Shown one piece after another: positions 8,766-45,303 of a DNA stretch of 55,851 nt. The stretch covers positions 1 through 55,851 of the forward strand of contig JALXFE010000304.1 of NCBI GenBank assembly GCA_027069135.1. Reading direction: 5' to 3'. Source of the DNA: Thermoanaerobaculia bacterium (GTDB taxonomy: Bacteria; Acidobacteriota; Thermoanaerobaculia; Multivoradales; JAHZIX01). A model generated the notes under the pieces. That model did no database searches, was not told the origin of the DNA, and worked only from the letters and a program-made list of their open reading frames with translations. Position 1 is the first letter of the stretch. The number at the start of each line of letters is the position of its first letter. Made by a program: the position numbers and the translations under genes.

Positions 8766-8820
8766 CTGCGTTTGCTAGGACTGCGTTTGCTAGGACTGCG
8801 TTTGCTAGGACTGCGTTTGC
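8766..8820. repeat. 15-bp tandem repeat, 3 full copies plus 10 bp
   Basis: The unit CTGCGTTTGCTAGGA is repeated exactly at 8766, 8781 and 8796, then a 10-base partial copy to 8820. It lies between the divergent uup-like gene (start 8724) and the CNT transporter (start 8905), so it fills the shared promoter region. In the minus-strand frame it would encode LANAV repeats, which I take as spurious. Confidence 0.95.
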
Positions 8821-12737: not shown

Positions 12738-13469
12738 CTAGAGATATTGCTGAAAGAGCACCATGGCCCCCAGGGCGAGAGCGGCCCAAAGGGCGACGAG
12801 GCGGGGCTTCTCGTTTTCGTAGGCTTCCGGAAGTAACTCGAGGAAGACCATCAGCACCATGGCTCCTGCGGCGAAGCCCAGGCCGTAGGGGAGGAGGGGG
12901 CGGAAGGTGTCGACGAAAATGAAGGCTGGCACCGCCATCAGCGGTTGGGGCAGGGAGGAGAAGATGCTCCAGCCGGCACAGCTCGCTACCGAGCTGCCTT
13001 GGGGGCGCATGACGGCGCTGATGGCCAAGCCTTCGGGAATGTTGTGGACGGCGATGGCGATGGTGATCAATGCCGCCAGCTTCTCACCGCCACCGAAGGC
13101 GACGCCGACCGCCACCCCTTCCGAGAAGGAGTGGAGGGTCATCACCCCTAGGATGAGCAGGATCCGCTTGGCGCCGGCCCCTTTGAGCTGTCCGAACTCG
13201 ACCTCCCGATCCTTTAGGAGCCACTCGCCCAGGAGGATGAAGGCCGCGCCGATGGCACCGCCGACCAGGGTCTCGAGGGTGCCGTAGTGGGCCCCCTCGG
13301 ACATCAGTCCGAAACTGGCGCCCAGCATCAACCCGGAAGCGACGGCGTTGGCCAGGGCCAGGGTGCGGGGGGAGACCTCCCGGAGGAAGGCGAAGGGGAT
13401 GGCCCCGAGGCCCGTGGCCAGAGCCGTGATCGAGCCATAGACGAAGACGAGAGCTACGCTGGTCCACAT
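12738..13469 (-). CDS. ZIP family divalent metal transporter (first of two adjacent paralogues)
   Basis: A 243-residue protein with about eight membrane helices. The metal-path motifs are HSFSEGVAVGVAFGG (helix 4) and HNIPEGLAIS (helix 5), the classic ZIP pair. ZIP proteins bring Zn, Fe or Mn into the cytoplasm. It starts 13 bases after the stop of the upstream ZIP paralogue (13483-14208), so the two form an operon. Substrate is not readable from sequence alone. Confidence 0.9.
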   Translation of the reverse strand: MWTSVALVFVYGSITALATGLGAIPFAFLREVSPRTLALANAVASGLMLGASFGLMSEGAHYGTLETLVGGAIGAAFILLGEWLLKDREVEFGQLKGAGAKRILLILGVMTLHSFSEGVAVGVAFGGGEKLAALITIAIAVHNIPEGLAISAVMRPQGSSVASCAGWSIFSSLPQPLMAVPAFIFVDTFRPLLPYGLGFAAGAMVLMVFLELLPEAYENEKPRLVALWAALALGAMVLFQQYL

Positions 13470-13482
13470 AGGGATCGGGGCC

Positions 13483-14208
13483 TCAGAGCAGGAGGTCTTC
13501 GAAGAAGAGCACCGCCGCGGCGCTGCCGGAAAGAAGGAGGGCGATGAGCCGGCGGGCGCCGAAGCGGTAGGCCGTCGGCACCAACTCCCCGAGCACCAGG
13601 GAAAACATGGCGCTGGCGGCGAAGCCCAGGACCGCGGCGAGCAGCTGCGGTACCGAGGTCAGAATCGCTAGGGTAGCTACCGCCAGCAATGGTTGGCTGA
13701 GCTTGGTCGCCACGGCTAGACCGGCGCATTCGCCGACCTTCATGCCACGATGGCTCAGGAATTCCGTAAGGCCCAAGGCCTCACCGACGTTGTGGACCGC
13801 CAGGACCAGGGCCAAGAAGGTACCGAAGGCCAGGCTCACCGCCATGGCGACTCCGATGGCGACACCTTCGGAGGCCGAGTGAAGGGATCCCTGAAGAAGC
13901 TGTCGATAGCCGTCGACGGGGTCTGCAGCAGCTCCCTTTTCAGTGGAGACCGCGAAGCGCTGGGTCCAGTAGATGAAAGCCACACCGATCAGAGCGCCCA
14001 GCGCCGAGCTCGGAAGGGCCTCTCGGAGTCCCTCGGTTCCGAGGAGGTACGCCGCTCCGATCATGACCCCGCTGGGCAGGGCGTAGGCACCGGCGACCCA
14101 AGCCCGAGGCGGTGACGCGCCAAAGGCGTAGGGCAAGGCACCCAGAGCCGCCATCGCCGCGGCGATGCCGGCGAGGAGAAGGGTGGTCAGCGTGGGATCG
14201 GTGGTCAT
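13483..14208 (-). CDS. ZIP family divalent metal transporter (second of two adjacent paralogues)
   Basis: A 241-residue membrane protein like its downstream neighbour. The helix-4 motif is HSASEGVAIGVAMA. The helix-5 motif is HNVGEALGL rather than HNxPEG, losing the usual proline, so its metal preference may differ. It is the first gene of the ZIP pair and diverges from the CBS gene across 170 bases holding a 16-base palindrome. The pair could work as a heteromer or as two carriers with different metals; that is inference. Confidence 0.87.
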   Translation of the reverse strand: MTTDPTLTTLLLAGIAAAMAALGALPYAFGASPPRAWVAGAYALPSGVMIGAAYLLGTEGLREALPSSALGALIGVAFIYWTQRFAVSTEKGAAADPVDGYRQLLQGSLHSASEGVAIGVAMAVSLAFGTFLALVLAVHNVGEALGLTEFLSHRGMKVGECAGLAVATKLSQPLLAVATLAILTSVPQLLAAVLGFAASAMFSLVLGELVPTAYRFGARRLIALLLSGSAAAVLFFEDLLL

Positions 14209-30348: not shown

Positions 30349-31980
30349 CTAGCGGGGCACTACCCGTTTGCCGGTGGGCTCGAAGGTCCCCTTCGACAGG
30401 TCGACGGCGAGGACGTGGCCGCCCCGGGCTCCCAGGCGGCGGTTGGGGGAGAAGGCTATTTCCGGGGTGAGGCCGGTGGAGAAGTCGTAGAGGCCTTCCA
30501 GGGATTCGATGAGGCGCTCCCGGGAGAGGTTGCGGCCCGAGCGGTTGAGGCCTTCGACGAGCAGGGTGGCGGCGGAAACAGCGGCTAGTTGGGCCGCCAG
30601 GTGCTCGGTTCCGAGCCCTCGTTCCTGCGCCAGCTGCCAATAACCGGAGGCGGTGGCCGGATCCGCATCCGTCAGCAGGGCCGGGAAGGCCGCATAGAGG
30701 CGGTCTTGGAATTCGGTGGCGGCGTCCAAGAGGGTCGGCGCTGCGAGAATACCGGGGACCAGCACCGCCGGGTACCATCCCCGGGCGTCGGCAGCCTGCA
30801 AGAAAGACTGGAGATCCCGATCCCGCCCCAAGAAGAGCACGATCTCCGCGGGGACCGCCCTCGAGGCTGGAGCGGATTGCGCTTCAGCGGCAGCCACAGC
30901 CTCTCCCCTACGATGCTCGGCGAGAGTCGAGATGCGGATCTCGTCCCAAGTCCCGAGGCGGGCCTGATCCCGGGCGCTCTCGGCCCAGGAGAGTCCCGTT
31001 TCATCTCCTTCGTGGAGGATCAGAAGCCTTCCGCTTTTCAGTGAGTCCTTTCCGCCAGCAAAATCCACCAGCGTGCGGGCCAGCTCGTCGACGCCGCCGT
31101 AGAGGTAGAAGACGTAGCGATTCGGTGGAAGGGCCAACCAAGGGTTGAGAGCGGCGGGCCCTACGGTGGGTAAGATCGATTCCTCGAAGATCTGGGCCAG
31201 CTCCTGCTCCCGGCCGGTGAGGTCCGGCGCCACCAGGGCCAGGGGCGGCTCGTCTCCCAAGGATTCAAGGACCGCCGTCGCCAGGCTCTCTCCGGCGACT
31301 CCCGCGGCCGGTAGGGGCAGGACCTGGAGCTCGACCCGGCGGCCGTAGACTCCACCCCGTTCGTTGAGGTCGTCGAAGTAGATCTCCAGGGCGCCGCGGG
31401 TGGCCTTCCCTCTGGGATTGTCCGGTGACAGGAAGGTGCCGATGCGGATGGTCTCGTCGGTCAGCCCTGGATCTCGCTCGTGACCGAGGATCTCCAGATA
31501 AGCGATGAGATCTGCCGCATCCCGGCGGCTGAGACGGTACTCCGGCATGGTGCTGTTGAGTTCGTTACCGGCGGGATCCACCCCCATGGTGATGGCCCGG
31601 AGCACGGATCGTTCATCGTAAGGGGGATGCTGACGGTGGTCCGGACGGCGGGCTCCCCGAGGGTCTGTCAAGGCGGGCCAGGTGACATCCGAGGGGGCGA
31701 TGCCCCCTTCCGGCCGGCCGCGGCCATCGTGACCATGACAGCTGGCGCAGGGCACCAAGGAAGCGGCGACCTCGAAGGCTTCTTCGCCCATGGCAGCGAG
31801 GATCTCCCCCCCATCGGCGGTGACGCCACGGTGGAAGATGGCCTTGCCGCGATCCGGGTCCGGTCCCCGCGAGTCCATGACCGTGTCCGCCGCGGCGGGA
31901 GCCGCGAGGAACACAGCGAGAAACACAGCGAGAAACACAGCCCGGGCGAGCCCGGCGATCGACGCCGCCAGCGGTTTCAT
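30349..31980 (-). CDS. Exported c-type cytochrome fused to an ABC-type substrate-binding (Peripla_BP_6-like) domain
   Basis: 543 residues. The signal peptide hydrophobic core is FLAVFLAVFLAAPAAA. Residues ~35-170 are a monohaem cytochrome c: CASCH haem site near residue 78 and TMPEYRLS as the probable methionine ligand. From ~residue 175 a periplasmic-binding fold begins (IRIGTFLSPDNPRGKATRGALEIYFDDLNERGGVYGRRVEL), as in branched-chain amino-acid receptors, continuing to ~530. No permease or ATPase lies nearby, so a sensing or docking role is more likely than uptake. It overlaps the upstream SCO gene by four bases and is the last gene of the copper-oxidase locus. The combination is unusual. 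Confidence 0.85.
   Translation of the reverse strand: MKPLAASIAGLARAVFLAVFLAVFLAAPAAADTVMDSRGPDPDRGKAIFHRGVTADGGEILAAMGEEAFEVAASLVPCASCHGHDGRGRPEGGIAPSDVTWPALTDPRGARRPDHRQHPPYDERSVLRAITMGVDPAGNELNSTMPEYRLSRRDAADLIAYLEILGHERDPGLTDETIRIGTFLSPDNPRGKATRGALEIYFDDLNERGGVYGRRVELQVLPLPAAGVAGESLATAVLESLGDEPPLALVAPDLTGREQELAQIFEESILPTVGPAALNPWLALPPNRYVFYLYGGVDELARTLVDFAGGKDSLKSGRLLILHEGDETGLSWAESARDQARLGTWDEIRISTLAEHRRGEAVAAAEAQSAPASRAVPAEIVLFLGRDRDLQSFLQAADARGWYPAVLVPGILAAPTLLDAATEFQDRLYAAFPALLTDADPATASGYWQLAQERGLGTEHLAAQLAAVSAATLLVEGLNRSGRNLSRERLIESLEGLYDFSTGLTPEIAFSPNRRLGARGGHVLAVDLSKGTFEPTGKRVVPR
31911..31946. repeat. 12-bp tandem repeat in the signal peptide of the cytochrome fusion
   Basis: About three near-exact copies of AAACACAGCGAG encode the repeated VFLA/AVFL steps in the hydrophobic core of the signal peptide. 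Copy-number change would alter the core length four residues at a time without a frameshift. Confidence 0.7.
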
Positions 31981-32570
31981 CCGCGATCCTCCAGGACGCT
32001 GTTCAGAATCTGGATGAGCTCGTCAGCGTCCGCCATGCCCATGGCTTTCTTCCACAGGCCGGTAGGTTCGTTGCCCATCAGCATGAGGCTTTGATGAGCT
32101 TCCGGGTCGTCGACGTATTGTCCCAGCTTCTTCAGCGCCAGGGAGACGTTCTCTTTCTTACCGGTGAGGAAAAACCAGCCGGGCCGGGTGCGGAAGGATT
32201 CGGAGAACGACAGGAGCTTCTCCGGCGTGTCGGTGTCCGGATCGACCGAGATGGAGAGGATGTAGACATCCTTGCCGAGGCGATCGCCGAGCCAGCGCTG
32301 GATCTTGACCAGGCGGGCGGCCATGGCCGGGCAAGCACTTGAGCAGGAGGTGAACATGGAGTTGATGACCACGACCTTGTCTTTCAGCAGGTCACTGTAG
32401 AGACGGTGGTGGGTACCGTGCTGGTCCACGAGCTCGATGTCGCCGAAGTATTTCTCCGAGCCCCGCGGGGTAGTTGTCCCCTCCGCGGCGTGAATACCGG
32501 TCATGGGGAGTAGGAGCGCCAGGATCAACGATGCGGCGCCTATGGAAGGACGAATCGGCAACAAGCTCAT
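31977..32570 (-). CDS. SCO1/SenC-family copper chaperone (second SCO gene)
   Basis: A thioredoxin-fold periplasmic copper protein of 197 residues with a signal peptide ending near GIHA. The copper ligands are CSSAC (residues ~76-80) and a later histidine in DPEAHQSLML. SCO proteins load the CuA centre of haem-copper oxidases or act as thiol reductants. No CuA oxidase genes are in the window, so the nearby giant multicopper oxidase is the obvious candidate client (inference). It overlaps both neighbours by four bases. Confidence 0.92.
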   Translation of the reverse strand: MSLLPIRPSIGAASLILALLLPMTGIHAAEGTTTPRGSEKYFGDIELVDQHGTHHRLYSDLLKDKVVVINSMFTSCSSACPAMAARLVKIQRWLGDRLGKDVYILSISVDPDTDTPEKLLSFSESFRTRPGWFFLTGKKENVSLALKKLGQYVDDPEAHQSLMLMGNEPTGLWKKAMGMADADELIQILNSVLEDRG

Positions 32571-33310
32571 CGGGCGACCTCCTCAGGGTTGAGAGCTTCG
32601 GTTTGCAGTAGCTCATCGAGCATTTTGGCCAGCTTGACCGGTGGTGTGAGGCCGTTGACCCGCCGCCAGACACCGGTCCGGTCGTTGACCAATAGGGCGA
32701 TGGGGCCGTGGTCCTTGACGTCGGGAGTGAGGGCTTCCAGCTGCCGAAGCACTTGATCGACATCGGTCTTGAGGCCAGTGACGAAGGTCCAGGCTTCGGT
32801 CGCCGAGAATTTCTCGCCCCAAGCTTTGAGGCGTTCCGGCGTGTCCGTCGTCGGATCGATAGAGATGGAGATCAATTGCACATCCCGGCCCAGGCGTTCG
32901 CCGAGCTCGTCCTGAAGACGGCTGAAATTGGCACCCATAGGCGGGCAGACGGTGGTGCAGGTGGTGAAGATGAAGTTCATCGCCACGACCTTGTCCTTGA
33001 CCAAGTCGCTGTAAAAGGAGATGGCCTCGCCCTCCTGGTTCATCAGGCGCATATCCGGAATCCGCAGGCCGCCGGTCTGCGCCGAAGATTGGGCCGGGGC
33101 TGCGGATCTTTTCATCATCGCGGCGTGGTCATGGCCGGTGTGTACTTCGACGCCATCCGCGGTTCCCGGCGCCGTGTGGCAGGAGGGCAGCGAGCCGTCT
33201 TCCTGACCGAAGGCGGCGGCGGGCAGACCTAGGATGCCCCCGACGGCGGCCAGGGCAGCGAGGTAACCAAGAGATTTGAGATGGCTTGAGACAGATGCTT
33301 GTTTCTTCAT
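32567..33310 (-). CDS. SCO1/SenC-family copper chaperone with histidine-rich N-terminus (first SCO gene)
   Basis: 247 residues, signal peptide ending near AAAFGQ. The copper site is CTTVC (~residue 119) plus the histidine in VKDHGPIALLV. Between signal and fold there is a short H/M-rich segment, VHTGHDHAAMMK, that could bind extra copper. It shares only the family fold with the next gene, so the two are not a recent duplication. It follows the propeller gene by 34 bases with AGAGGAAC as ribosome binding site. Confidence 0.92.
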   Translation of the reverse strand: MKKQASVSSHLKSLGYLAALAAVGGILGLPAAAFGQEDGSLPSCHTAPGTADGVEVHTGHDHAAMMKRSAAPAQSSAQTGGLRIPDMRLMNQEGEAISFYSDLVKDKVVAMNFIFTTCTTVCPPMGANFSRLQDELGERLGRDVQLISISIDPTTDTPERLKAWGEKFSATEAWTFVTGLKTDVDQVLRQLEALTPDVKDHGPIALLVNDRTGVWRRVNGLTPPVKLAKMLDELLQTEALNPEEVAR

Positions 33311-33344
33311 GAGAAAGTTCCTCTGTATGGCTCAACAGGAGGGC

Positions 33345-35393
33345 TCAATGAGCGCTCGCCCGAGTGGATTCTGTCTTGGAAGAGGGCCCCGTCGCCGGGC
33401 TCGCTTCGATGATCACATAGCTCGACTGGCGGATCTGCAAGCCGAGGGATTGGGAGCTGAGGAAGACGTAGTAGAGACCTTCTTCCGGCGGGGTGAAGAC
33501 CATGCTGTACACACCGCCGCCCTCGTTGTTGGCGAGGGTTCGCTGCTGCCAGCGGCCGGGACCTTCGAAGGCCAGGACTTTGAGATCTTTGAGCTCGTCT
33601 AAGGGAGTGCCAAGTTTCGGATCTGAAAGGCGAAAGCGCAACTCGACGGGGATACCGACGGTCACTTGACGATTCGCCTGGAGGGTTTCGATCTTGACCC
33701 TTGGCTTGGCCGCCTGCCGGATCTGCTCCTGTTTCGGATCCGCGGCCACGTCCATTTTGAAGCAATGGATCAGCCGCGGCGAGTCGAGGTAGAAGGCGAC
33801 ATCGTAGTTCCCCGGGCGACGCAAGGTGACGGTGGTCTCATACTCGCCGGGGCGTCGTTCTTCGAGGCTGCGGTCCACCACCAGGACTGCCCGGGGCTGA
33901 CGGCTGTAGTTTTGGAAGCTCCCCATGGGGGCCGCCATGCCTTCTTTGTAGAAGTAGATGATTTTGTCTGCCGGATTGGCGACCAGAACGGCGGGGGCCC
34001 CGGGAGCCTGGACGATGGTGGGCGCACGGCTTGGGTTGGCTCCACCGCCGGAGGGGTGCCGACCTCCGGGAAAGTCGACGACGGGAATCGGTGCATTCTC
34101 CTTGCCGAGTTCCAACAAGGGGACCATCAGGACCAACTCGTTTCCCCGGTGGCGGATGTAGGCCAGCTCGTCGGTGAAGGTGACCTGGTCCGGCCCTTCC
34201 TCAACCGTGCCGCTCTGGATGATCCGCTGACGGGCGGCGTCGATCACGTAGATGTAGTCGTTTAGAGGGTTGACCATCACGCCATAGCGGCCCTCCGGAG
34301 CGAAACGAAGCATGCCGAGGCCGGGAGGGGCTTCGATTTTGGCCACGGCGCGGCGGGCCTCACCGTCGACGACGGTGACCGTGCCGTCGATGTCGTCCAC
34401 CACGTAGGCAGCGCGACCGGTGGAGGAGAAGTCGATGAAGCTGGGGTGGGAGCCGGTGGGCAGATCCGCCAGTTTGGTCAGGCCCCGGGCGTCGAGGATG
34501 GAAACCGTACCGGCTTGGGCGTTGGTGACGAAGGCATGGAGCTCGTCGCTGCCGAGAACCATGTCGTGGGCCCCGGCCCCGGTGGCGATACGGGCTTCAA
34601 GATTGAGAGTTTCGGTGTCGATGACCACCACCCCGGAGGCGTCACCTTTGCCGTCGTCGGTGACCCAGAGATGTCGACCGTCGGCGGTGAGAACCAGCCT
34701 GGAGGGGCGTGATCCGGTCTCCACTTGGGCAGCGACTTTCCAGGTGTCCGTATTGACCACGGTGACCTTGCCGGTGTCCGGAACCGAGACGTAGAGGCTT
34801 CGCTCATCCGGGGAGAGGACCCAATCTTCGCCGTTGGCCTCCAACTCGACGAGGGCCAGGAGCTTGGTGGTGCCGAACCCGAAAAGCGGATCGACGATGG
34901 TGATCGAGGCGTCGTCGTTGAGCGCGATGACGTAGTAGGCATTGAGATTGACCTCTGCCTGAGAGAAGAGGCTACCGCCGAGGAAAGTGCTCACCTTCTG
35001 GCTGCAAGGTTCCTGTTCCATCAGCACGCCCCGGGGGATTCGGTCCATCCAGGCTGCGGGATAGAGACTGGACATGGGGGCTCCGGAGGCGGTGTCGGCG
35101 ATCTTGAAGCGGACGAGGACGGTATCCCCTTCTCTCAAGGGACCGTCTTGGCCTGTGAGCCGCTCGAGCTCCATGCCCACGGAGATGCCCTCTTTTTCGG
35201 TTTCGGCGGCGTCATTTTTCTTGACCTCGGCGGGTTGCGAGGTCGCCACGGCCTGGGAGGTGGCCTCCGGCAGGGTTATTACGGTCTCGGGAACGGACGC
35301 CTCGAGGGCCTGGGATCCCGGTGCGCTCGTGAGCACCATGGCTGCCAAGAGGAGGCAGGCCGGAGGACGGAGAGAGGGGTTCAGGTAGCTCAT
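33345..35393 (-). CDS. Exported YVTN-type beta-propeller protein
   Basis: 682 residues with a signal peptide (to ~residue 29). An N-terminal Ig-like stretch (~residues 45-110) is followed by repeated blades with YVTN-like steps (SLYVSVPDTGKVTVVNTDTWKV, HAFVTNAQAGTVSILDARGL, AAYVVDDIDGTVTVVDGEARRAV) across ~140-450. A C-terminal Ig/YtkA-like domain ends the protein. Similar propellers occur in cytochrome-d1-like and metal-respiration proteins, but no haem-binding motif is seen here. It starts the operon that continues into both SCO genes and the cytochrome fusion. Role unknown; a docking or electron-shuttle scaffold is a guess. Confidence 0.85.
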   Translation of the reverse strand: MSYLNPSLRPPACLLLAAMVLTSAPGSQALEASVPETVITLPEATSQAVATSQPAEVKKNDAAETEKEGISVGMELERLTGQDGPLREGDTVLVRFKIADTASGAPMSSLYPAAWMDRIPRGVLMEQEPCSQKVSTFLGGSLFSQAEVNLNAYYVIALNDDASITIVDPLFGFGTTKLLALVELEANGEDWVLSPDERSLYVSVPDTGKVTVVNTDTWKVAAQVETGSRPSRLVLTADGRHLWVTDDGKGDASGVVVIDTETLNLEARIATGAGAHDMVLGSDELHAFVTNAQAGTVSILDARGLTKLADLPTGSHPSFIDFSSTGRAAYVVDDIDGTVTVVDGEARRAVAKIEAPPGLGMLRFAPEGRYGVMVNPLNDYIYVIDAARQRIIQSGTVEEGPDQVTFTDELAYIRHRGNELVLMVPLLELGKENAPIPVVDFPGGRHPSGGGANPSRAPTIVQAPGAPAVLVANPADKIIYFYKEGMAAPMGSFQNYSRQPRAVLVVDRSLEERRPGEYETTVTLRRPGNYDVAFYLDSPRLIHCFKMDVAADPKQEQIRQAAKPRVKIETLQANRQVTVGIPVELRFRLSDPKLGTPLDELKDLKVLAFEGPGRWQQRTLANNEGGGVYSMVFTPPEEGLYYVFLSSQSLGLQIRQSSYVIIEASPATGPSSKTESTRASAH

Positions 35394-35471
35394 CGTTGCA
35401 CCTCAAGAGGAGAGTCATTCGAAAAAAAACGGTCGTTCCAACAAAGTCTGTCTTCTAGAAAAGAAGAGAAA

Positions 35472-35501
35472 CGCCGGGGCCGATGTGGCCCGACCCCGGC
35501 G
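35472..35501 (-). terminator. Intrinsic terminator after the giant oxidase
   Basis: On the minus strand CGCCGGGG pairs with CCCCGGCG across a 14-base loop, followed at once by the pyrimidine tract TTTCTCTTCTTTT. It stands 10 bases after the oxidase stop. It implies that the oxidase transcript usually ends here and that the propeller operon has its own promoter, or depends on read-through. Confidence 0.75.
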
Positions 35502-35511
35502 TTAGGGGTCG

Positions 35512-38500
35512 TTACTCGACCCTAAAGACACCCCAGAGGCCGTTGACCAGGTACCACGGAGCGTAGTCGCCGTAGTGGTAGTCCCCGGTCACCCTAAAGG
35601 GGCCTCCGGCGCCGCCCTTGAGCACGGCGTCGAAGTGGTTGCTCGCACCGTGGCCCGAGCGGGCACCGATCCACGGCGAGGTCGGATTGGACCCGATCAC
35701 CGTGGAGTTAAGGACGTAGGGCGTCGTCTCCCAAACATGTCCGCTGAGATTCCAGACATGGTTCTGGGTGTGGCCGCCGGGATGAACCACCCGGAAGCGC
35801 GCGGGAGTTCCCGCATCGGCAGTGAACACCGGAGTCACCGGATCCAGGCCGCCGATGTAGGCGTTGTTGAAGACCTGGTCGAAGTCGGTGATCAGGCGGG
35901 TCTGGGTCGGGTCGCTTTCCGGCTTGTAACCGTGGCGAAACCACACGGGCTCGGTCCGGTAGTTAAAGGCCTTCTGTCCCGTCTCCTGGGCATCCTCGTT
36001 GACCCTCATGCTCATGACCGGTTCCGGATCTCCCCGACTGGTGCGATCGTCCGTGTAACGCAGGTTGACGTCATTCTGGAAGATTACGGCGAATTCCCGG
36101 AAGGAAGTGCCGTCCGGCTTGGTGATGGTGCCGGAAGCCCGGGTGCGCCGATCGTAGGGCTCACCCCCGTAGTTAGCGGTATTGGTGAGATTCCACGTCG
36201 AACCCTGCGGCTCGATGATCAGAGCGCCCACCGCTCCTTTGTTGGTGTGTTTGATGGGATCCGAGGAAGTGAGGCCGATGGCCCCGAACTCCACCGGTGT
36301 GGCGATGATGCCAGCATTGGTCGCTTCGACGCGGCCGGCGTACCAGTAGTAGGCGATCTTCTGTCCAGGAGAGACCGTCTGTTTTTGGTATTGGGCCGGG
36401 TTGAGGCCGACGTTGGCACCGTCACCCTGGCGAACGTCGAAGAACACCAGCTGCGGGTGGAGGCCCACTTCCAGCGAAGGATCGACGTCGTTTGCGTTGA
36501 AGTGCTCGATGACCGGCGTCATGCCACTCCAACCGTCCATGTCCCGGTAGCTCGTGGCACCGAAGCCGTAGTTGGTCGGCAGGTCGTTGCGCAGGACTAC
36601 CTCGATGCAGTCGCCGGCATTGGCCCGCAGCACCAGGGGCTCCACCGGAGCCATCGGGTTGAGGGTTGGCCGGAGAGTGGTCGAGTTGTAGATCAGGTCC
36701 GAGCTTTCGACGAAGAGGATCGCCGTCGGATCGTGCAGCGGGCCCTGGGCAATCTTGCTCGAAGGCAGATTCACCGGGTGCGCTGGGTCGTCCAAACGGG
36801 TCACCGTTGTAGCACGCCAGTTGTAGGTAAGGGTGTTGTTGGGCAGCACTTCCTTGGCCGCTACCGCGGTAATGTCGTACTGCACCAGATTCGCTCCCGC
36901 TGGACAGGCCACCGGGATCGGAATCGCCGCAGCACCCTGGGTGCTTGCCAGCTTGCCTCCGACGGTGGTGGTGGTTTCGTCGATGGTACCGGGTTTCGTG
37001 CGGGTCGGATCCGCCGTGCGGTAGCCGGTGTCAGCGTCGGAACCGTCCGCCCCGGTGCCGTAACGGCCGTCCAGGTTGGTGTTCAGGGCCTTCAGAGGAT
37101 CCACTCCGCCGACGCTACTGCGTCCACGGTAGAGCCTCAGCAAGCCCCACAGACCTTCCCACTGCCATTCCGAGGCGGAGCTCGGTTTGTAGAGGAAGTC
37201 CAGGAACCGGCCCTGGTCGAAGCCGGGCATGCGCCCGATTTCCAGGTCGAAGAACTCAGAGATACCCATGGCCTGGGAATTGCGCCACCCGGAGTTGGGA
37301 TTGGCCGGTTCCGCCAGCCAGGAAACTCCGTGCATGGAGAAGTTGTGCTCCTCCTCGTGGGCTCCCACCAGGGTGCGGATCTTGACGATATCCCCTTCGT
37401 GGGCCCGCATCACCGGCGTGTACGGGTCGCCCCGGACGACGCCGCGGGTGAGCGCCGGATAAGGTTGAACCTCCGGCAGGCCGGGGAATTTGTTGTAATC
37501 CGGATCCGCCCGGTCGGTACGGGTCTCGTAGGCGAAGGAAAGGTCCCCGGGCTGTGCAAGGCCTGGCGTATGAGACGCCTGACTATTGCTGAGGGGATCC
37601 CGCACCCGCATGGCGATCGGCTCATTGCGGTAGTTGACCACCGAAGTTCCGACATTGTCCGCCGAGATCGCTTCAGCGCACGGTCGGGGCAGGCCGGAAA
37701 TGGGGCAGGTCGCCGGGTTCTTGTAGATTTCGTGGACTACATGGGACTCGCGTCCTGGCGGGTTGATCGCAAAACGCCAGTTGGCCAGACCGGTGTCAGG
37801 GTCCGGGCAAACCGGATTCCACTCGTCGGTGTAGGCATGCTGGAAATCCGCGAATTCCAGGAGGAACTCACGATAGCTGTCCGTTTCGGTTTCGATCACC
37901 GCTTGCCAACTGGTCGGGCCGCCGTCCTTGCGGGCGCCGGCACCCAATAGCACACCGGTCTCGTTGTGAGCCCAAGTGCTCCCCGCCGGCTCGATCACCA
38001 GGCCCGCGTAGAGACCCACCTGCTGATGGGTGGACGGACCGAAGTGGTCGTGGGTAAAAACCGTGCGTAAGGTCTGGTCATAACCATTGGACGTCAAGAC
38101 CGGATCGGCCCACCAGCGCTGTACCGTCGTCTGCGCACCCAGATAATCCGGGTAGCCGTTGCAGTTGACGTCAGGGCCGGATCCGAATCGCGGATGGGGT
38201 CGGGCTTCCGGGCATGTGAAGCTCACAGCCGGGTCGGTGGTACCCGTGTCGCAACGGTTCTCGGTACGGATCGCTTCGATGCGGACCTGGACCTCTTCCG
38301 GGCTGAAGGTGCCATCCTCGTAGTTGAATCCGTTGCCACCACCATCAGAGGAAGTGACGTCGAACTTCACCAAATGAATGTGTTGACCGAGGATGTCCGT
38401 CGGTGTGCGCACTTGGAAGTCATCCAGTTGGTACTCAGCGGGTACCAGGTTGGTGGACTCGAATTGGATGCACTCACCGCTATTGGCGCGGAAGAAGAAC

Positions 38501-40878
38501 GGCTCCGGTGGCCGGGTACCGGCCATGGTCGGCAGCACGTCGTCCAGCAGAGTGATGATCCGCTGCTGCGGAAAATGCCAGCCGGATTTGTTGAATACCA
38601 CGTCCAGTTGGATATCCGCTGCCTGGTAAAGCCGGACCTCAGCGTCCGGGATGGTTGTCCCGTCGTCGCGGATACAGGGATCGGCGTAGGGGGCTCCGGG
38701 CTGGGGCGCTCCCCTGTTCAACTTGAACGTTGCCGTAGCGGTGGAACCGTTGGGCAAGGGTTGGGCATAGCCAGCCGGATTGTTGTGGAAGTCCATGGCC
38801 AGACGTTCCACGGGCTCACCGTTCTCGTCCCGCGGCGCCACCGGCATGGAGAGGATGTGCTTATGGAAGTCGAGGCGGGTCTCCGAACTACTCGCCAGCC
38901 CCGGACCGGTTACCACGTGGCGGGCGAGGCCGCCGTCGTCTAAGGTGTCCAAGGGCGGGTGCGGCGGCCTATGACCGGCGACCCCGGGAATGTAGAAGGG
39001 GTACCCCGGAAAAGAGTGGTCCTTCTGGCCCGCATCCAGGCGAGCCTGCAGGGTCGGAATCGGATCGACAATCTTCACCTGGCCATTGACGATCTGCACC
39101 GGTGCCGGCAGTACTGCCATGGGCTGATTCGGCAGCGGCACCAGGGCCGGGATGGGCGTACCGACCAAGATTTCGTTGTCCGGCAGAGCCCGAGAACCGA
39201 TCGCCGGCCGGCCCTTGCCGTCCAGCTCGGTACCCAACTCCAAAACGTCATGGGTGCGCCACATGGACCACATGCCCTGGGCGAAGTGGGGGTAGAAGTG
39301 GCAGTGGAAGATTGAGTCGCCGGGGGTCTTGTTGCGGTTACCGCTACCCTCATAGGCGATCTCGTAGGTGAACGTGCTCCCCTGACCTATGGTCTGGCTG
39401 TCCAGGTAGGTGGAATCCGGCTCCTTGGGGGAGCGCATCCACTGGTGGGCATGGAGGTGAAATACATGATGATCGTCCGAGCCCGCATGAAGATTGCGGA
39501 ATTTGACGTGATCGTTCAAGTAGGAGTGATAGACGTTGGACGGATCGTCCGGGTAGTAGGCAATGGTCGCCTTGGGCCCTTGGATCGGTTGGCATACGGG
39601 TATGCCGGAACTCGGGTCCGGATCGAGGGAGTCCTTGTCACAGGGATGGTTGGCGGGTTTGTCGACGATCATCGCCGGGTCTCCCACCGCCCAAGCGGTC
39701 AGGAAGAACTCCTCGTAGAGGCATTCGACGCATTCATGCACCGGGCCGACTTTCAGCCGGTTGGCGAGGATCTCGGCGCCGATACCGCCAGTGCCGTAGT
39801 TGATGGCAAAGGCATCCCGAACGCTATGTAGTGTGAATTCGGTCTCATCGTCATAGAATTGCGGGAAGGCCTGGAGCGCGGCGATCTCATCATGGAAAAT
39901 GATAGTGAACTCCCGGAACGGCTCTTTGCGGTTTGGATAGACAGCAGTGTTGCCCGGGTATCTGTTTCCGAAATTGCCGCGGTTCCGGCCTGTAATCATG
40001 GCCGTCAAATCCGAATGAACAATCTGGTTGGTTTCCGGATCGAGCATCCTCAGCTTCGGAAAATTCTGCCGCAGGCAGTCTTCCGTGGGCTTGTACTCGG
40101 CGGTGTAGTTGATGGTCGGGTATCCCGCCGGATTGGTGTCGATGCGGGTGCCTCTCAGAATGCTCTCAGTGACCTGGGAGCGATACCACTCGGCGCCGAA
40201 GGGCTCGACGGTGACCGCACCGAAAAGACCCGTGGAGATGGAGCCGGCATCGCCCTCGCCGCCAATCTGCGCTCCTAGGCTATGGGCCATGAAAGTACCT
40301 TCATGGGCGGCATAGTAGGTGTAGGTGACGCTCTGACCGGGTTGAACGATGCCGTTGTCGGCAGAGGTGTTCCGGCCGACGTCAGCCCCTGCGTCCTTGA
40401 TCGTGTTGACCAGCTGCAAGCCGACGATATGGAAGGAAGCTCCCCGGGTGTGGGGCTGCTCGTCGTCCGTCGGGGTACTGTCCAGGAGGTTCGTGAAGTT
40501 GATCCTCAGGCAATCGCCTTCGTTGACCCGAAGGACTATCGGCCTCGGCCTCTTGTCCCGCCGCAACTTCACGTTGCCGTATCGCAGGCTACTGGTAAAG
40601 CAACTTCCAGGGTCCTTCGGGTTCCAGCTCGATGGCACCACGTCGTGGCGCAGGGCGTACATCTGGCCCTGGGGTTCCATAGCGCCGTAGCGGTTCCACA
40701 TCCAGGGTTGATCCAGGGCCACGACGTTTGCCGTGACCGTGTTGAGGCAGGACACCGGTAGAGGCTCCGCCGGCACTTCGATTTGCGCCGTGGCCGGTAT
40801 GGCAGTCCATGCCGTCAGTGTGAGGAAGAGTGCTGCTGCAAAAAAGAGCGGCAGCTTCGAATACCCGAGTTGTCTCAT
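35512..40878 (-). CDS. Giant exported multicopper oxidase, 1788 residues
   Basis: A copper oxidase of exceptional length; common laccases have ~500 residues and Bacillus MnxG about 1,200. The signal peptide ends near PATAQ (residue ~32). I start at ATG 40878, after GGAGAGGG; the open frame to 41034 adds hydrophilic residues before the signal. Copper-site motifs: HVFHLHAHQW near residue 467 and HCHFYPHFAQGMW near 523, the latter combining the type 1 cysteine with trinuclear-site histidines. Further histidine groups lie at HIHLVKFD (~832), THDHFGPSTHQQVGLYAG (~945), HEEEHNFSMHG (~1175) and HTQNHVWNLSGHVW (~1705). Cupredoxin-like repeats (VTVEPFGAEW, VIEPAGSTW, IIEPQGSTW) recur at least three times. 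Only one HCH motif is seen, so one full catalytic site is likely. Manganese or other metal oxidation is possible but unproven. Confidence 0.88.
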   Translation of the reverse strand: MRQLGYSKLPLFFAAALFLTLTAWTAIPATAQIEVPAEPLPVSCLNTVTANVVALDQPWMWNRYGAMEPQGQMYALRHDVVPSSWNPKDPGSCFTSSLRYGNVKLRRDKRPRPIVLRVNEGDCLRINFTNLLDSTPTDDEQPHTRGASFHIVGLQLVNTIKDAGADVGRNTSADNGIVQPGQSVTYTYYAAHEGTFMAHSLGAQIGGEGDAGSISTGLFGAVTVEPFGAEWYRSQVTESILRGTRIDTNPAGYPTINYTAEYKPTEDCLRQNFPKLRMLDPETNQIVHSDLTAMITGRNRGNFGNRYPGNTAVYPNRKEPFREFTIIFHDEIAALQAFPQFYDDETEFTLHSVRDAFAINYGTGGIGAEILANRLKVGPVHECVECLYEEFFLTAWAVGDPAMIVDKPANHPCDKDSLDPDPSSGIPVCQPIQGPKATIAYYPDDPSNVYHSYLNDHVKFRNLHAGSDDHHVFHLHAHQWMRSPKEPDSTYLDSQTIGQGSTFTYEIAYEGSGNRNKTPGDSIFHCHFYPHFAQGMWSMWRTHDVLELGTELDGKGRPAIGSRALPDNEILVGTPIPALVPLPNQPMAVLPAPVQIVNGQVKIVDPIPTLQARLDAGQKDHSFPGYPFYIPGVAGHRPPHPPLDTLDDGGLARHVVTGPGLASSSETRLDFHKHILSMPVAPRDENGEPVERLAMDFHNNPAGYAQPLPNGSTATATFKLNRGAPQPGAPYADPCIRDDGTTIPDAEVRLYQAADIQLDVVFNKSGWHFPQQRIITLLDDVLPTMAGTRPPEPFFFRANSGECIQFESTNLVPAEYQLDDFQVRTPTDILGQHIHLVKFDVTSSDGGGNGFNYEDGTFSPEEVQVRIEAIRTENRCDTGTTDPAVSFTCPEARPHPRFGSGPDVNCNGYPDYLGAQTTVQRWWADPVLTSNGYDQTLRTVFTHDHFGPSTHQQVGLYAGLVIEPAGSTWAHNETGVLLGAGARKDGGPTSWQAVIETETDSYREFLLEFADFQHAYTDEWNPVCPDPDTGLANWRFAINPPGRESHVVHEIYKNPATCPISGLPRPCAEAISADNVGTSVVNYRNEPIAMRVRDPLSNSQASHTPGLAQPGDLSFAYETRTDRADPDYNKFPGLPEVQPYPALTRGVVRGDPYTPVMRAHEGDIVKIRTLVGAHEEEHNFSMHGVSWLAEPANPNSGWRNSQAMGISEFFDLEIGRMPGFDQGRFLDFLYKPSSASEWQWEGLWGLLRLYRGRSSVGGVDPLKALNTNLDGRYGTGADGSDADTGYRTADPTRTKPGTIDETTTTVGGKLASTQGAAAIPIPVACPAGANLVQYDITAVAAKEVLPNNTLTYNWRATTVTRLDDPAHPVNLPSSKIAQGPLHDPTAILFVESSDLIYNSTTLRPTLNPMAPVEPLVLRANAGDCIEVVLRNDLPTNYGFGATSYRDMDGWSGMTPVIEHFNANDVDPSLEVGLHPQLVFFDVRQGDGANVGLNPAQYQKQTVSPGQKIAYYWYAGRVEATNAGIIATPVEFGAIGLTSSDPIKHTNKGAVGALIIEPQGSTWNLTNTANYGGEPYDRRTRASGTITKPDGTSFREFAVIFQNDVNLRYTDDRTSRGDPEPVMSMRVNEDAQETGQKAFNYRTEPVWFRHGYKPESDPTQTRLITDFDQVFNNAYIGGLDPVTPVFTADAGTPARFRVVHPGGHTQNHVWNLSGHVWETTPYVLNSTVIGSNPTSPWIGARSGHGASNHFDAVLKGGAGGPFRVTGDYHYGDYAPWYLVNGLWGVFRVE

Positions 40879-41352
40879 AGAGACCCTCTCCTTCTGTGGG
40901 CGATGACGGGTCGTCCGTCCCGAGAGCATCACCGCCAGCTCGAGGACCTTACTTAAGGGTCTCAGGAGCGGGGGGCTGACTCCGTTGAAATGAAGGCTGG
41001 CGAAAAGGTCGTGAAGAGCTTTCCAGCAGCGCATTACAGCTTACTGAGGAGGAAGATAATGAGGCCGAGATGACACGGTTATGAATTAGGATATTTGCCG
41101 ATGGCCATGCGGAATACTGATGGGGGAGACCGGAAGGCTGAAGGCTTTGTCCCGGGAGAACCGGAATGTATCCCTAGACGAAATCGTGGTCCACGAATTC
41201 GGAGACAGGCACGCCCTATGACTGAATGAAGGAGATTGTAGGGGCGTCCCTTGTGGGCGCCCAATGAAGCGTAGAAAGCGGGATAGCTCCCACCGCACCA
41301 GGGGAGGCTCAAGGAGGCTCCCTAGGTAATTCCCGGGATCCGTGCGGCCGTG
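40879..41352. other. 474-bp leader and gap upstream of the giant oxidase
   Basis: No gene is supported. Short minus-strand frames here (for example residues GAHKGRPYNL) are translations of the palindromic repeat at 41237-41262. The promoter of the oxidase should lie here. AT-rich sequence near 41080-41100 (ATGAATTAGGATATTTGCC) is the most promoter-like part, but no pair of boxes is convincing. Confidence 0.5.
41237..41262. repeat. 26-bp palindromic repeat, copy matching 10345
   Basis: It begins TGTAGGGGCGTCCC and ends GGGCGCCC, identical over 26 bases to the copy at 10345-10370, 30 kb away, and lies between the oxidase and the cohesin-like gene. Confidence 0.9.
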
Positions 41353-42378
41353 CTAGGGGGTCTGGGAGCTCCAGGCGGAAAGGGTGCCGGACTCGAACCC
41401 GTCGCTGAATAGGGGGGTGAGCTCGCCAAAGGTGACGACATCCTCGAACAAGGTCAGAGGCACCGGCTGCCCCTGCAGGTCCCTCAGGGTGGTCAGTGCC
41501 GGATCCAGGGACACTGGCGAGAGGGTGCCCAAGGGGATCGTCGGCGAAGTCGGTAGCAGGATCGATACAAGCTGCCCGGGGATCTCGTTCAAGGAGCCGT
41601 CCGCCGAGACCAACGAAGCGAGGATCAATCCCGGGGTCGAGAGGTCCAAGTCAAGGGTCGCGGTACCGTATCGATCCTCATGGGTCACCTGGGGCGGTCC
41701 GGTGGCGATCTCGGGATCGTAGCGAAAGGCGAGCTCCGCTGAGGACAACGGGAAGATCTCGGAAGTCTCCACTGCCAGGAGCGCCACGTCGCCCGGGAGA
41801 AGCTCATCGCCGTCGGCGGTGAGGCTCAGGGGCGCTGCCGCGGGCAGAACGGTCAAGATGCCGTCCCGCAAGCGGAGGGGGACCGGCTGTCCGGCGTCGT
41901 CGATGAGGAAGGTGTTGGCCGGATCCAGCACCAGCTCGATGGTCGCTCCCGGCGGGGTATCGGCGGCAAGGGTCAGGAAGACGGACGCCATGGGGCCGTC
42001 GGCCCAGTTGACACGGCCGGTGGCTGAGTTGAATTCGAGAATCGCCGTCTGGGTCTGGCCGTCGGATTCAAAAGTCGTCAGGGTCAGGGCATCGTCGAAT
42101 TCGCTGAACACGACGGCATCTTCCAGGGAATCGAAAGGCAGGGCCCCACCCTGGTGGGCCTGATTCAGACAGGCGATGAAGCAGATCTGCCCCTGCTTGA
42201 TGGGCCGGGCGGCATAGGTCCGCAGGACCAGGGCAACCTGGCCCCCGGGCCGCGCTTCGGCGTCACTGAGCCTCAAGGCGAGGTCGGCGGCAGCCAGAGG
42301 CCGTTCGGCCGGAACCGTTCCGAGCATGAGCAAGAAGAGGACGGAAGGTGCGAAGAATTGACGGCGAATAGAAATCAT
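41353..42378 (-). CDS. Exported protein with two cohesin-like beta domains and C-terminal DGFESG motif
   Basis: 341 residues. Signal peptide ends near LAAA (~residue 30). Two related beta-sandwich units (residues ~32-165 and ~175-315) follow the cohesin-like pattern: a start such as LSDAEARPGGQVALVL, then AxLxFxYDP or ILEFNSATG, then AxxPPGATIEL. The end reads LFSDGFESGTLSAWS, a motif found at the C-terminus of many exported proteins of this bacterial group and perhaps a sorting tag. I start at ATG 42378; the frame to 42480 overlaps the previous gene. It is last in the signalling operon. Confidence 0.7.
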   Translation of the reverse strand: MISIRRQFFAPSVLFLLMLGTVPAERPLAAADLALRLSDAEARPGGQVALVLRTYAARPIKQGQICFIACLNQAHQGGALPFDSLEDAVVFSEFDDALTLTTFESDGQTQTAILEFNSATGRVNWADGPMASVFLTLAADTPPGATIELVLDPANTFLIDDAGQPVPLRLRDGILTVLPAAAPLSLTADGDELLPGDVALLAVETSEIFPLSSAELAFRYDPEIATGPPQVTHEDRYGTATLDLDLSTPGLILASLVSADGSLNEIPGQLVSILLPTSPTIPLGTLSPVSLDPALTTLRDLQGQPVPLTLFEDVVTFGELTPLFSDGFESGTLSAWSSQTP

Positions 42379-42389
42379 GGCAATGCCCT

Positions 42390-43289
42390 TCAATAGCGAG
42401 TCTGTCCAATGCCCGCGACGCCATAACCCGAATTTCCCGAGACCGCAGTGTTCGCCGGTTTGACGAGGAAACGGATCCATTCCGAGGCGGCGACCACCCT
42501 TTCTTCCGTGTCGAGGGCTTCAACTTTCCAGGAGTATACAACTCCGCGATGCAGGAGGGAGAGAGGCTCATCAAGCATTGGCAGGTCTGCGCGGGAGGTG
42601 ACGCCGTCCCAGAGGGGAGTCTTGTCCACTCCGCGCAACTCAACACGGTAGGAGCTGGCCTCCGAAACCTCCTGCCATCGAAAGGCTGTCGGCAAGTCTT
42701 CCAGGGAGCCCTTTGGAGCGTGGCCTTCGAGGATCGTGCCCCTTCGGGCCGATGAGGTCGGAGGCTGCGGCAGCCCCGGTGCCCTGGAAATGAAGTGCCA
42801 CGAGGCTCCGCTGATCACGGCGATGAAGGCAGCAGCAGTGAGCCAGCTACGATGCCACCGTCTCGGCGAGGTATAGGGGTCGGAAGTCCCGGGGGGGCCC
42901 GATTCGGGCAGGTTTACCGGCAGATCTCGAGCTAGTCTCGCTGCGGCGAGGCGGTTGGCCAGATCCTCCGCCGAAAACGGCTTGCGAAGAAACAGCACCC
43001 GGCCTTGTTCGACGAGGTTCTGAAGGATCGGATCTCCCCGGGAGGCAGAGTAGGCGACCAGCGCGAGATCTGTATCTCGGGCGAGGAGATGGAGGAGGAT
43101 CTGTGTTCCGCTCATTCCAGGCAAGCGGAGATCCGTGACCAGAGCCTCGAAGGCGGGAGTTTGGTTCTCGAGGGTTCGAAGTGCTTGGCCTCCGGTCGCG
43201 GCCGTCACCACCTCGTGCCCGAGGCTTTCTAGGAGCTCCTGAGTCGCCACGCGTACTTCCGAAATGTCTTCGACCAGAAGAATTTTCAT
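42390..43289 (-). CDS. Receiver domain fused through a membrane helix to an extracytoplasmic domain
   Basis: 299 residues. Residues 1-125 form a response-regulator receiver: acidic pair in LLVEDIS, phospho-acceptor D53 in VTDLRLPGMSG, and the lysine in LFLRKPFS. After a proline-rich linker there is one membrane helix (WLTAAAFIAVISGASW, ~149-168), then a ~120-residue fibronectin-like domain (FRWQEVSEASSYRVELRG). A receiver carried on a membrane protein with an outer domain is rare; it might pass a phosphorylation signal outwards. It lies 154 bases after the histidine kinase and 11 bases before the cohesin-like gene. Confidence 0.8.
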   Translation of the reverse strand: MKILLVEDISEVRVATQELLESLGHEVVTAATGGQALRTLENQTPAFEALVTDLRLPGMSGTQILLHLLARDTDLALVAYSASRGDPILQNLVEQGRVLFLRKPFSAEDLANRLAAARLARDLPVNLPESGPPGTSDPYTSPRRWHRSWLTAAAFIAVISGASWHFISRAPGLPQPPTSSARRGTILEGHAPKGSLEDLPTAFRWQEVSEASSYRVELRGVDKTPLWDGVTSRADLPMLDEPLSLLHRGVVYSWKVEALDTEERVVAASEWIRFLVKPANTAVSGNSGYGVAGIGQTRY

Positions 43290-43443
43290 AGTTTTTCATG
43301 CCCTCGGGCCAGGGTGTCCCCGAGCTTCGCGAACCTCTCGGCTTCCCGAAACTCGATCTCTCAGCGAGCGTAGCTCTTGCAACATGAACGCAAAATGACA
43401 GCCGGTCATCCAGGCCTTGTCGCGGCTACCAGGACTGAGGGGC

Positions 43444-45303
43444 TCATCCGCCGGGATCCGTACTCGTTTCCTGGGAGGGTGTCAGGCGCTCGCCATCCAG
43501 AAGCTCACGAACGACCCGGGCCATGCTGCGGCCGGAGAAGAGCTTCTTCAAGAAATGGACCTCCCCGCGGACGACCCCGGCACGGACCGTCATGTTATCC
43601 GTGTGACCGGACAGCAGCAGGGCTTTGACGTCGCGCCGTTCCCGGATTCGCGCGAGGACCTCCGGGCCGCTCATCCCGTGCATCACGACATCGGTCATGA
43701 CCAATTCGATCTCGTCCTCGTGGCGGTCGAAGACCTCCAGGGCTTCCTGGCCACTGGTGGCGCAGAGGACTCGATAGCCGAGGGCCCCGAGAAGGCTGCG
43801 GGTCGATTCCCGGAACTCGTCGTTGTCGTCCACCAGGAGGATGCATTCGCTGCCTTGGAGACCCTCGTCCTGAAGATCGTTGGGGACTTCGGAGACGGTC
43901 AGGGTTTCAGCGCAGCGAGGAAAATAGGCGCGGAACGTCGTTCCGGCCCCTTCCTCGCTCTCCACCACCAGGCGTCCTCGGTGTTGCTCCACGATGCTGT
44001 AGACGATCGCCAGACCTAACCCCCGGCGGCCGTCCTGCCCCTTGGTGGACATGAAAGGCTCGAAGATCTTGTCTTTCAGCTCTTTGGGGATACCCGTGCC
44101 GGTATCGGAGACCTCCAGGAGGACCTCTTCCTGTTCCGGCGGAGAGCTCCCGGCGTTGGCGGTGCGGATCCGCAGCAAGCCACCGTCCGGCATCGCCTCC
44201 TGGGCGTTGAGGACGAAGTTGACCAGGACCTGTTCGATCTGGGTGGGGTCGATACGGATATTCCACAGGCCCTCGGGCAGGTCGCTCTGCAGGTGAATAT
44301 TCTCCCCGACGGAGGGGGCCATGACCTTCTCCAGGCCGGCGACCACGGTGTTGAGGCTGAGTACCTCTAGCTGCAAGGGTTGTTTGCGGCTGAAGGTCTG
44401 GAGCCGATCGATGAGCACCGAGGCCTTGTTGACCACCCGAATCGCAGCATCCATTTTGCCGCCGATCCAGGTGTCGGTTCCATGGCGCATGGTCACCAGC
44501 TCGCACTGCCCCCGGACCGCCGCCAGGTAGTTGTTGAGATCGTGGGCCAAGCCGCCAGCGAGGCGGCCGACCGCGTCCATCTTCTGGGATTGAGTCAGTT
44601 GATACTGGCTTTCTTGGAGCGCGGCTTCCATTTGGCGCCGACGTCGTTCCCGGGTCCACAAACCAAAGGTTGCGACACCGATGAGGACACACCAGGCGAC
44701 CAGGATTCCCCGGAAGAGGAGCCGGGACAATTCTCGGCTGGCCTGCATTTGAGCGTCCAGAGATTCCTCCAAGGCTTCGGCGTCCTCAAGCAGGCCTGCG
44801 AAGACAGCGTCGTAGCGAACGTCCATGGCGGAGCCGATGCCGACCGGCAGTCCCTGGTCAAAACCGGCCTGGCGTTCGAAGGAGATCTTGCGGAATTCAC
44901 CGATGTTGGAGGAAAGGGAATTCGCCCGGCGCAGCATCGCCTCATCCTCGAGAGCGGGGGTTCGCGGCCTTCCGGACGGCCTCCCCGGCGGCCCTTCCTG
45001 ACCGATCATGTCCAGAGCTCGCCGCTCCGCCCGATCCAACCGCTCGTAGATGTCGAGCACGTCCACCTGATCGCCGGTGACGTATTCCTCTAACCACAAA
45101 TGGGAAATGGCGGCGTCTTCCTGGATCTCGCCGATCGCCTTGAGGAGCTCCAGGTCCCGAACGATGGAGCGTTGGCGCAGTTGGTCGGTCAGGAGCAGCA
45201 GAATGACGGAAAGGATTCCCAGGCCCAGGACCCCCAGGGGCATCCAGGAACGCGTGGGGAGATAATGTTCTCGTCGATCCATCGGGGGGCTGCCTTGGAT
45301 CAT
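43444..45303 (-). CDS. Hybrid sensor histidine kinase with C-terminal receiver
   Basis: 619 residues. Two membrane helices (~22-41 and ~200-220) bracket a ~155-residue periplasmic helical sensor. The H-box is GGLAHDLNNYLAAVRG (~residue 262), the HWE-unlike PAS-free type. ATP-site motifs are NFVLNAQEAM, DTGTGIP and GRRGLGLAIVYSIV. A receiver follows from ~490 (ILLVDDNDEF, VMTDVVMHGMSG). AGGAGG lies 6 bases before ATG 45303, so the longer start is kept. It follows the OmpR-type regulator by 26 bases. Confidence 0.92.
   Translation of the reverse strand: MIQGSPPMDRREHYLPTRSWMPLGVLGLGILSVILLLLTDQLRQRSIVRDLELLKAIGEIQEDAAISHLWLEEYVTGDQVDVLDIYERLDRAERRALDMIGQEGPPGRPSGRPRTPALEDEAMLRRANSLSSNIGEFRKISFERQAGFDQGLPVGIGSAMDVRYDAVFAGLLEDAEALEESLDAQMQASRELSRLLFRGILVAWCVLIGVATFGLWTRERRRRQMEAALQESQYQLTQSQKMDAVGRLAGGLAHDLNNYLAAVRGQCELVTMRHGTDTWIGGKMDAAIRVVNKASVLIDRLQTFSRKQPLQLEVLSLNTVVAGLEKVMAPSVGENIHLQSDLPEGLWNIRIDPTQIEQVLVNFVLNAQEAMPDGGLLRIRTANAGSSPPEQEEVLLEVSDTGTGIPKELKDKIFEPFMSTKGQDGRRGLGLAIVYSIVEQHRGRLVVESEEGAGTTFRAYFPRCAETLTVSEVPNDLQDEGLQGSECILLVDDNDEFRESTRSLLGALGYRVLCATSGQEALEVFDRHEDEIELVMTDVVMHGMSGPEVLARIRERRDVKALLLSGHTDNMTVRAGVVRGEVHFLKKLFSGRSMARVVRELLDGERLTPSQETSTDPGG

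Follow-up and report, generated by a model that had tools for sequence, protein, structure and literature searches.

What does a row of five genes for exported proteins, headed by a giant multicopper oxidase, do in a member of the Thermoanaerobaculia? The row lies in a stretch of 55,851 nucleotides (the whole of which is called the window here) on contig JALXFE010000304.1 of assembly GCA_027069135.1. All five genes are encoded in the same direction on the minus strand, between positions 30349 and 40878. The first encodes the oxidase (35512 to 40878; 1788 aa; Pfam Cu-oxidase_2 and NCBIfam NF041487), its length being counted from the ATG at 40878, while the longest ORF starts at 41034. The second encodes a YVTN/YncE-type beta-propeller with a C-terminal extension (33345 to 35393; 682 aa; Pfam YncE-like, YNCE). 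The third and fourth encode SCO1/SenC copper chaperones (32567 to 33310 and 31977 to 32570; 247 and 197 aa; both Pfam SCO1-SenC), with the CxxxC cysteines C118/C122 and C76/C80 and the histidines H201 and H159, respectively. The fifth encodes a fusion of a mono-haem cytochrome c and a class I periplasmic binding protein of the LivJ type (30349 to 31980; 543 aa; Pfam Cytochrom_C and Peripla_BP_6). An N-terminal hydrophobic stretch resembling a Sec signal was recognised by eye in each of the five proteins. The oxidase and propeller genes are separated by 118 bp and the propeller and first SCO genes by 34 bp, while the two SCO genes overlap by 4 bp (32567 to 32570), as do the second SCO and cytochrome genes (31977 to 31980). 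The next gene beyond the row, YaiI/DUF188, lies on the opposite strand. The strand, sizes, positions and four-base overlaps given in an earlier note on this DNA agreed with the ORF coordinates, and the Pfam domains agreed with its naming of the proteins.

The oxidase matched NF041487 (copper_ox_MnxG, manganese-oxidizing multicopper oxidase MnxG) with 1349.9 bits over three stretches, but did not reach the curated equivalog cut-off of this profile, a whole-protein score of 3100 bits. Judged by sequence, it is a divergent relative of MnxG and not an equivalog. The ligand motifs of the broad Mnx-type family, HxxHxH, HCHxxxHxxxxM, HxH and HxH, were all present. By motif, the type 1 copper ligands are H471, C526, H531 and M536, and the trinuclear ligands are H474, H476, H525, H527, H833, H835, H943 and H945. 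All twelve were invariant in 92 of 92 homologues in an alignment that included Pseudomonadaceae, and the trinuclear site, whose completeness the earlier note had left to be checked, was complete in its ligands at this level. The only close solved relative found by a sequence search of the PDB was 9bxa, Bacillus MnxG, with an E value of 3.2e-93 for the single sequence and 9.4e-150 for a ten-sequence profile; two-domain laccases came next with the profile, at 7.6e-9. A structure model of the 971-residue core (mean pLDDT 71.8) also matched 9bxa best (Z 14.1, 562 residues, 3.5 Å, 30% identity), followed by ceruloplasmin (Z 10.4). The 9bxa chain has an alanine at the position of the second type 1 histidine of the window oxidase, because 9bxa is, by its title, the H340A variant.

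Another giant multicopper oxidase, of 1756 aa, is encoded in the same genome, on the minus strand of a different contig (C254, 747 to 6017). It is about 24% identical to the window oxidase, keeps all 12 copper ligands, has a membrane-anchor-like segment at its start and is followed by a sulfatase-modifying-factor-domain protein; neither an SCO nor a propeller gene lies beside it.

The earlier note treated the row as a module without a known counterpart, but the Pseudomonas mnxG operon is such a counterpart. Dissolved manganese is turned into mineral oxides by the soil bacterium P. putida with the help of this operon. The mnxG operon of P. putida GB-1 encodes, in order, MnxG, a YVTN propeller, two SCO1/SenC proteins, an ABC substrate-binding protein with a cytochrome c domain, and SurA (PMC11409713 Table 4). 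Pseudomonas sp. OF001 has a similar operon (PMC8218464), and P. putida MnxG is a genetically proven manganese oxidase (PMC11930936). The window carries genes one to five of these six in the same order and on one strand, but not surA. SurA homologues near mnxG were found only in Pseudomonadaceae loci and in one other gammaproteobacterial locus. Scores over the MnxG cut-off were reached in 31 of the 248 genomes of one family, which we take to be the Pseudomonadaceae from a genus-type 16S signature, and with which these scores agree. The four partners follow mnxG in the GB-1 order in six of the eight over-cut-off genomes fetched, and a SurA-domain protein follows the partners in the one examined in full. 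Identities between the window and Pseudomonadaceae proteins were 38 to 40% for the oxidase, 35 to 37% for the propeller, up to about 40% for each SCO and 33 to 36% for the cytochrome fusion, the best values in gene order being about 40, 37, 40, 40 and 36%. Each Pseudomonas SCO scored higher with the profile of the window SCO at the corresponding place in the row, first with first and second with second. Complete copper ligands are common to both operons, but the hosts belong to different phyla, the proteins are only 33 to 40% identical, and the window oxidase falls under the equivalog cut-off. Methylobacter luteus and three Pseudomonadaceae genomes each carry two full-length mnxG genes in tandem.

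Other manganese oxidase systems resemble the row in part. MnxG of Bacillus sp. PL-12 (PDB 9bxa, H340A complex) is also a giant oxidase of several cupredoxin domains, and its motifs come in the same order as in the window oxidase, but it has about 1220 aa against 1788 aa. The Bacillus enzyme needs MnxE/MnxF, and an SCO/cytochrome cassette such as that of the window is not mentioned for it in PMC5622069. The mofABC operon of Leptothrix discophora likewise combines a large multicopper oxidase with a c-type cytochrome, and a copper metallochaperone occurs in Rubrivivax (PMC8218464). By description, mofB encodes a mip-type protein, and a propeller and an SCO pair are not reported for mof in the same paper.

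A scan of named genomes yielded 80 loci, from Acidobacteriota, Pseudomonadota, Myxococcota, Bacteroidota, Nitrospirota, Planctomycetota, Chloroflexota, Gemmatimonadota, Thermodesulfobacteriota, the archaeon Methanoperedens and others. Among the 65 informative loci, those with at least 6.5 kb downstream, a propeller was found in 55, an SCO in 40 and the cytochrome fusion in 38. All three partners were present in 35, and their order was identical in 35 of 35. Several loci had mnxG and the propeller but no cytochrome. Within the order of the host, several further genomes carry the complete cassette and others only the oxidase and propeller genes. The gene row is more than chance, given that its order was found again in 35 of the 65 informative loci, which belong to other genomes and many phyla. 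This co-occurrence, which the earlier note had proposed to look for, together with the complete ligands supports its view of one extracytoplasmic copper-oxidase module. In a tree of 52 oxidases, which came from a quick, short search and has many open forks, Pseudomonas MnxG fell inside a set of 32 sequences that also holds the window protein (SH-aLRT 98); the nearest neighbours of the latter were a same-genus relative and other Acidobacteriota.

We therefore interpret the locus, with a probability of roughly three in four, as a divergent manganese-oxidase operon of the MnxG type, and Mn(II) oxidation as its best-supported function, given the homology and synteny to P. putida, whose oxidase is genetically proven. 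Gene order, homology and ligand conservation are observed. The earlier note had called the substrate unknown and metal oxidation one possibility among others, but Mn(II) would now be the leading substrate, as the five genes are those of the Pseudomonas mnxG operon minus surA. The giant oxidase, exported and with a complete type 1 and trinuclear copper site, would use O2 outside the inner membrane to oxidise Mn(II), probably as far as Mn(III)/(IV) oxide. The two SCO proteins would deliver copper to it and/or keep the copper cysteine reduced. For the other two proteins we infer partner roles, the propeller as a structural or assembly partner and the cytochrome/binding-protein fusion as an electron-transfer or maturation partner. 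Counted against this manganese-oxidase reading were the score under the MnxG cut-off, the absence of surA, the lack of a sigma-54 site in the upstream region scanned, and the presence of homologues in anaerobe lineages.

The same operon architecture might serve another substrate, with an extracytoplasmic oxidase of Fe(II), Cu(I) or phenolics that has only fold and partners in common with MnxG. As the oxidase lies under the MnxG equivalog cut-off (1350 of 3100 bits), an identity of about 39% to Pseudomonas MnxG does not guarantee that the substrate is the same; moreover, the next structural match is ceruloplasmin, a ferroxidase, and relatives occur in anaerobic hosts. However, a proven manganese operon has all five genes in this order, the Pseudomonas enzyme is nested in the same clade, and laccase-like matches were far weaker than the match to MnxG. 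A different substrate is accordingly unlikely in our estimation.

MnxG homologues with intact copper ligands were present in L051 and L091 (Methanoperedens), L056 (Jettenia), L073 (Pelobacter), L074 (Geobacter) and L087 (Desulfobacterales), all lineages known as anaerobes. At some of these loci the propeller was the only partner beside mnxG. An O2-dependent oxidase in such lineages is puzzling and suggests that some family members do something else. Two further loci, L040 and L041, encode larger paralogues of about 2140 to 2260 aa. These are preceded by an SCO gene and followed by a homologue of the cytochrome fusion that is short (about 340 to 350 aa), which is a second cassette architecture.

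The haem site of the fusion protein is C78-x-x-C81-H82 with the axial ligand M145, and CxxCH and the axial methionine were invariant in 41 of 41 relatives. In a model with a pLDDT of 90.2, a small cytochrome c precedes the LivJ-type periplasmic binding protein; Foldseek gave LivJ-type matches to this model (E 5.6e-19 to 4n03), and the sequence profile matched Leu/Ile/Val-binding proteins. In P. putida, mutants in cytochrome c maturation (ccm) no longer oxidise Mn(II), as cited in PMC9634551, where an energy role is proposed as well. The fusion, as a cytochrome encoded within the operon itself, is an obvious candidate for the cytochrome lost in these mutants; the literature passages on manganese oxidation that were consulted contained no statement linking the two. 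We tentatively propose that the fusion may be the c-type cytochrome whose loss stops Mn(II) oxidation in the ccm mutants, and an ancient, dedicated partner of MnxG across many phyla. It might shuttle electrons to or from the oxidase or reduce copper or the SCO proteins, while its binding domain might sense or present a ligand.

The constant haem-binding cytochrome of the fusion and the ccm phenotype could also be taken to mean that electrons from Mn(II) pass through the fusion into a respiratory chain, besides reaching O2 at the trinuclear site. We regard such Mn(II) respiration as improbable, as the complete trinuclear site already passes electrons to O2, the cassette encodes no membrane partner, and the cytochrome is absent from several loci with mnxG and the propeller. 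A new respiration module, also considered, was dropped, as these five genes stand in this order in the mnxG operon of P. putida, and nothing was found in support of the energy-conserving role that the earlier note had allowed for.

In both SCO proteins, CxxxC and the histidine were conserved in 100% of the relatives aligned, and in 15 related loci the two are replaced by a single polypeptide in which both of the two SCO domains have CxxxC. No haem-copper oxidase was detected among the window ORFs scanned, which agrees with the earlier observation that none adjoins the SCO genes. Other contigs of the host genome contain additional SCO matches as well as four COX1 matches, and two of these contigs (C133 and C31) carry both, so that the SCO proteins of the operon are not needed to explain the assembly of cytochrome oxidase. 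That they serve a cytochrome c oxidase encoded elsewhere and lie here by chance is very improbable: SCO proteins classically serve CuA and the genome has the four COX1 matches, but other SCO genes accompany COX1 on these two contigs, and the operon SCO genes occupy the same place after the propeller across phyla, with the pair fused in 15 loci. Most plausibly, as synteny and fusion suggest and as had been supposed before, the pair loads copper into the multicopper oxidase. The propeller is about 36% identical to that adjoining Pseudomonas mnxG, and its C130 and C544 were conserved in about 95% of relatives; it is likely a scaffold or partner of the oxidase.

The 118-bp gap between the oxidase and propeller genes contains a strong, GC-rich hairpin of 14 pairs with a U-rich tail (35470 to 35503, minus strand), just 3' of the oxidase stop codon, which the earlier note does not mention. 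Hairpins of unrelated sequence occupy this position in the three nearest relatives, and a hairpin after mnxG was also found in some Pseudomonadaceae. Among the 38 mnxG genes with a gap of 40 to 1500 nt before the next cassette gene (gap sizes from longest ORFs), the 70 nt after mnxG gave a fold z below -3.5, against mononucleotide shuffles, in 19, compared with 1 of 10 after the propeller gene. Where mnxG is separated from the next gene by a gap, about half of the homologues keep the position of the hairpin but not its sequence (L028, L033, L034, L151, L154 and others). The hairpin is a candidate intercistronic terminator or mRNA stabiliser, and partial termination or protection of the message would give more oxidase than accessory protein.

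Upstream of the oxidase, at 41353 to 45303, lie genes for a hybrid histidine kinase, a response regulator and an exported protein of 375 aa (orf375). Pseudomonas mnxG is regulated by the two-component proteins MnxS1/MnxS2/MnxR. The trio recurs near the cassette in one distant locus (L038:12198-15986), and a kinase homologue adjoins mnxG in another (L031). The trio was rejected as a dedicated regulator, as many genomes that lack mnxG also have full-length homologues of the kinase, and a same-genus genome has the kinase on another contig. Pseudomonas mnxG has an IHF/sigma-54 promoter upstream. In the window no sigma-54 -24/-12 site with two or fewer mismatches was found on the minus strand at 40879 to 41352, in a scan whose site count in the window was about that of chance. 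A sigma-70 scan gave one weak site, on the other strand. Elsewhere in the window, a pair of neighbouring genes for ZIP-family metal transporters, of which the second matches below the Pfam cut-off, lies at 12738 to 14208, about 16 kb from the operon, and a 15-bp unit (TAGGACTGCGTTTGC) is present in three head-to-tail copies at an ORF boundary (8776 to 8820).

This kind of operon is already known; what is added is its recurrence across many phyla, usually with the haem protein. The accessory genes of P. putida are not local oddities, since their order is kept across these phyla, and manganese oxidation is predicted for this Acidobacteriota lineage. The cytochrome/binding-protein fusion is the least understood part of the cassette, and it is a candidate answer to the old puzzle of why manganese oxidation by a copper enzyme needs cytochrome c maturation.
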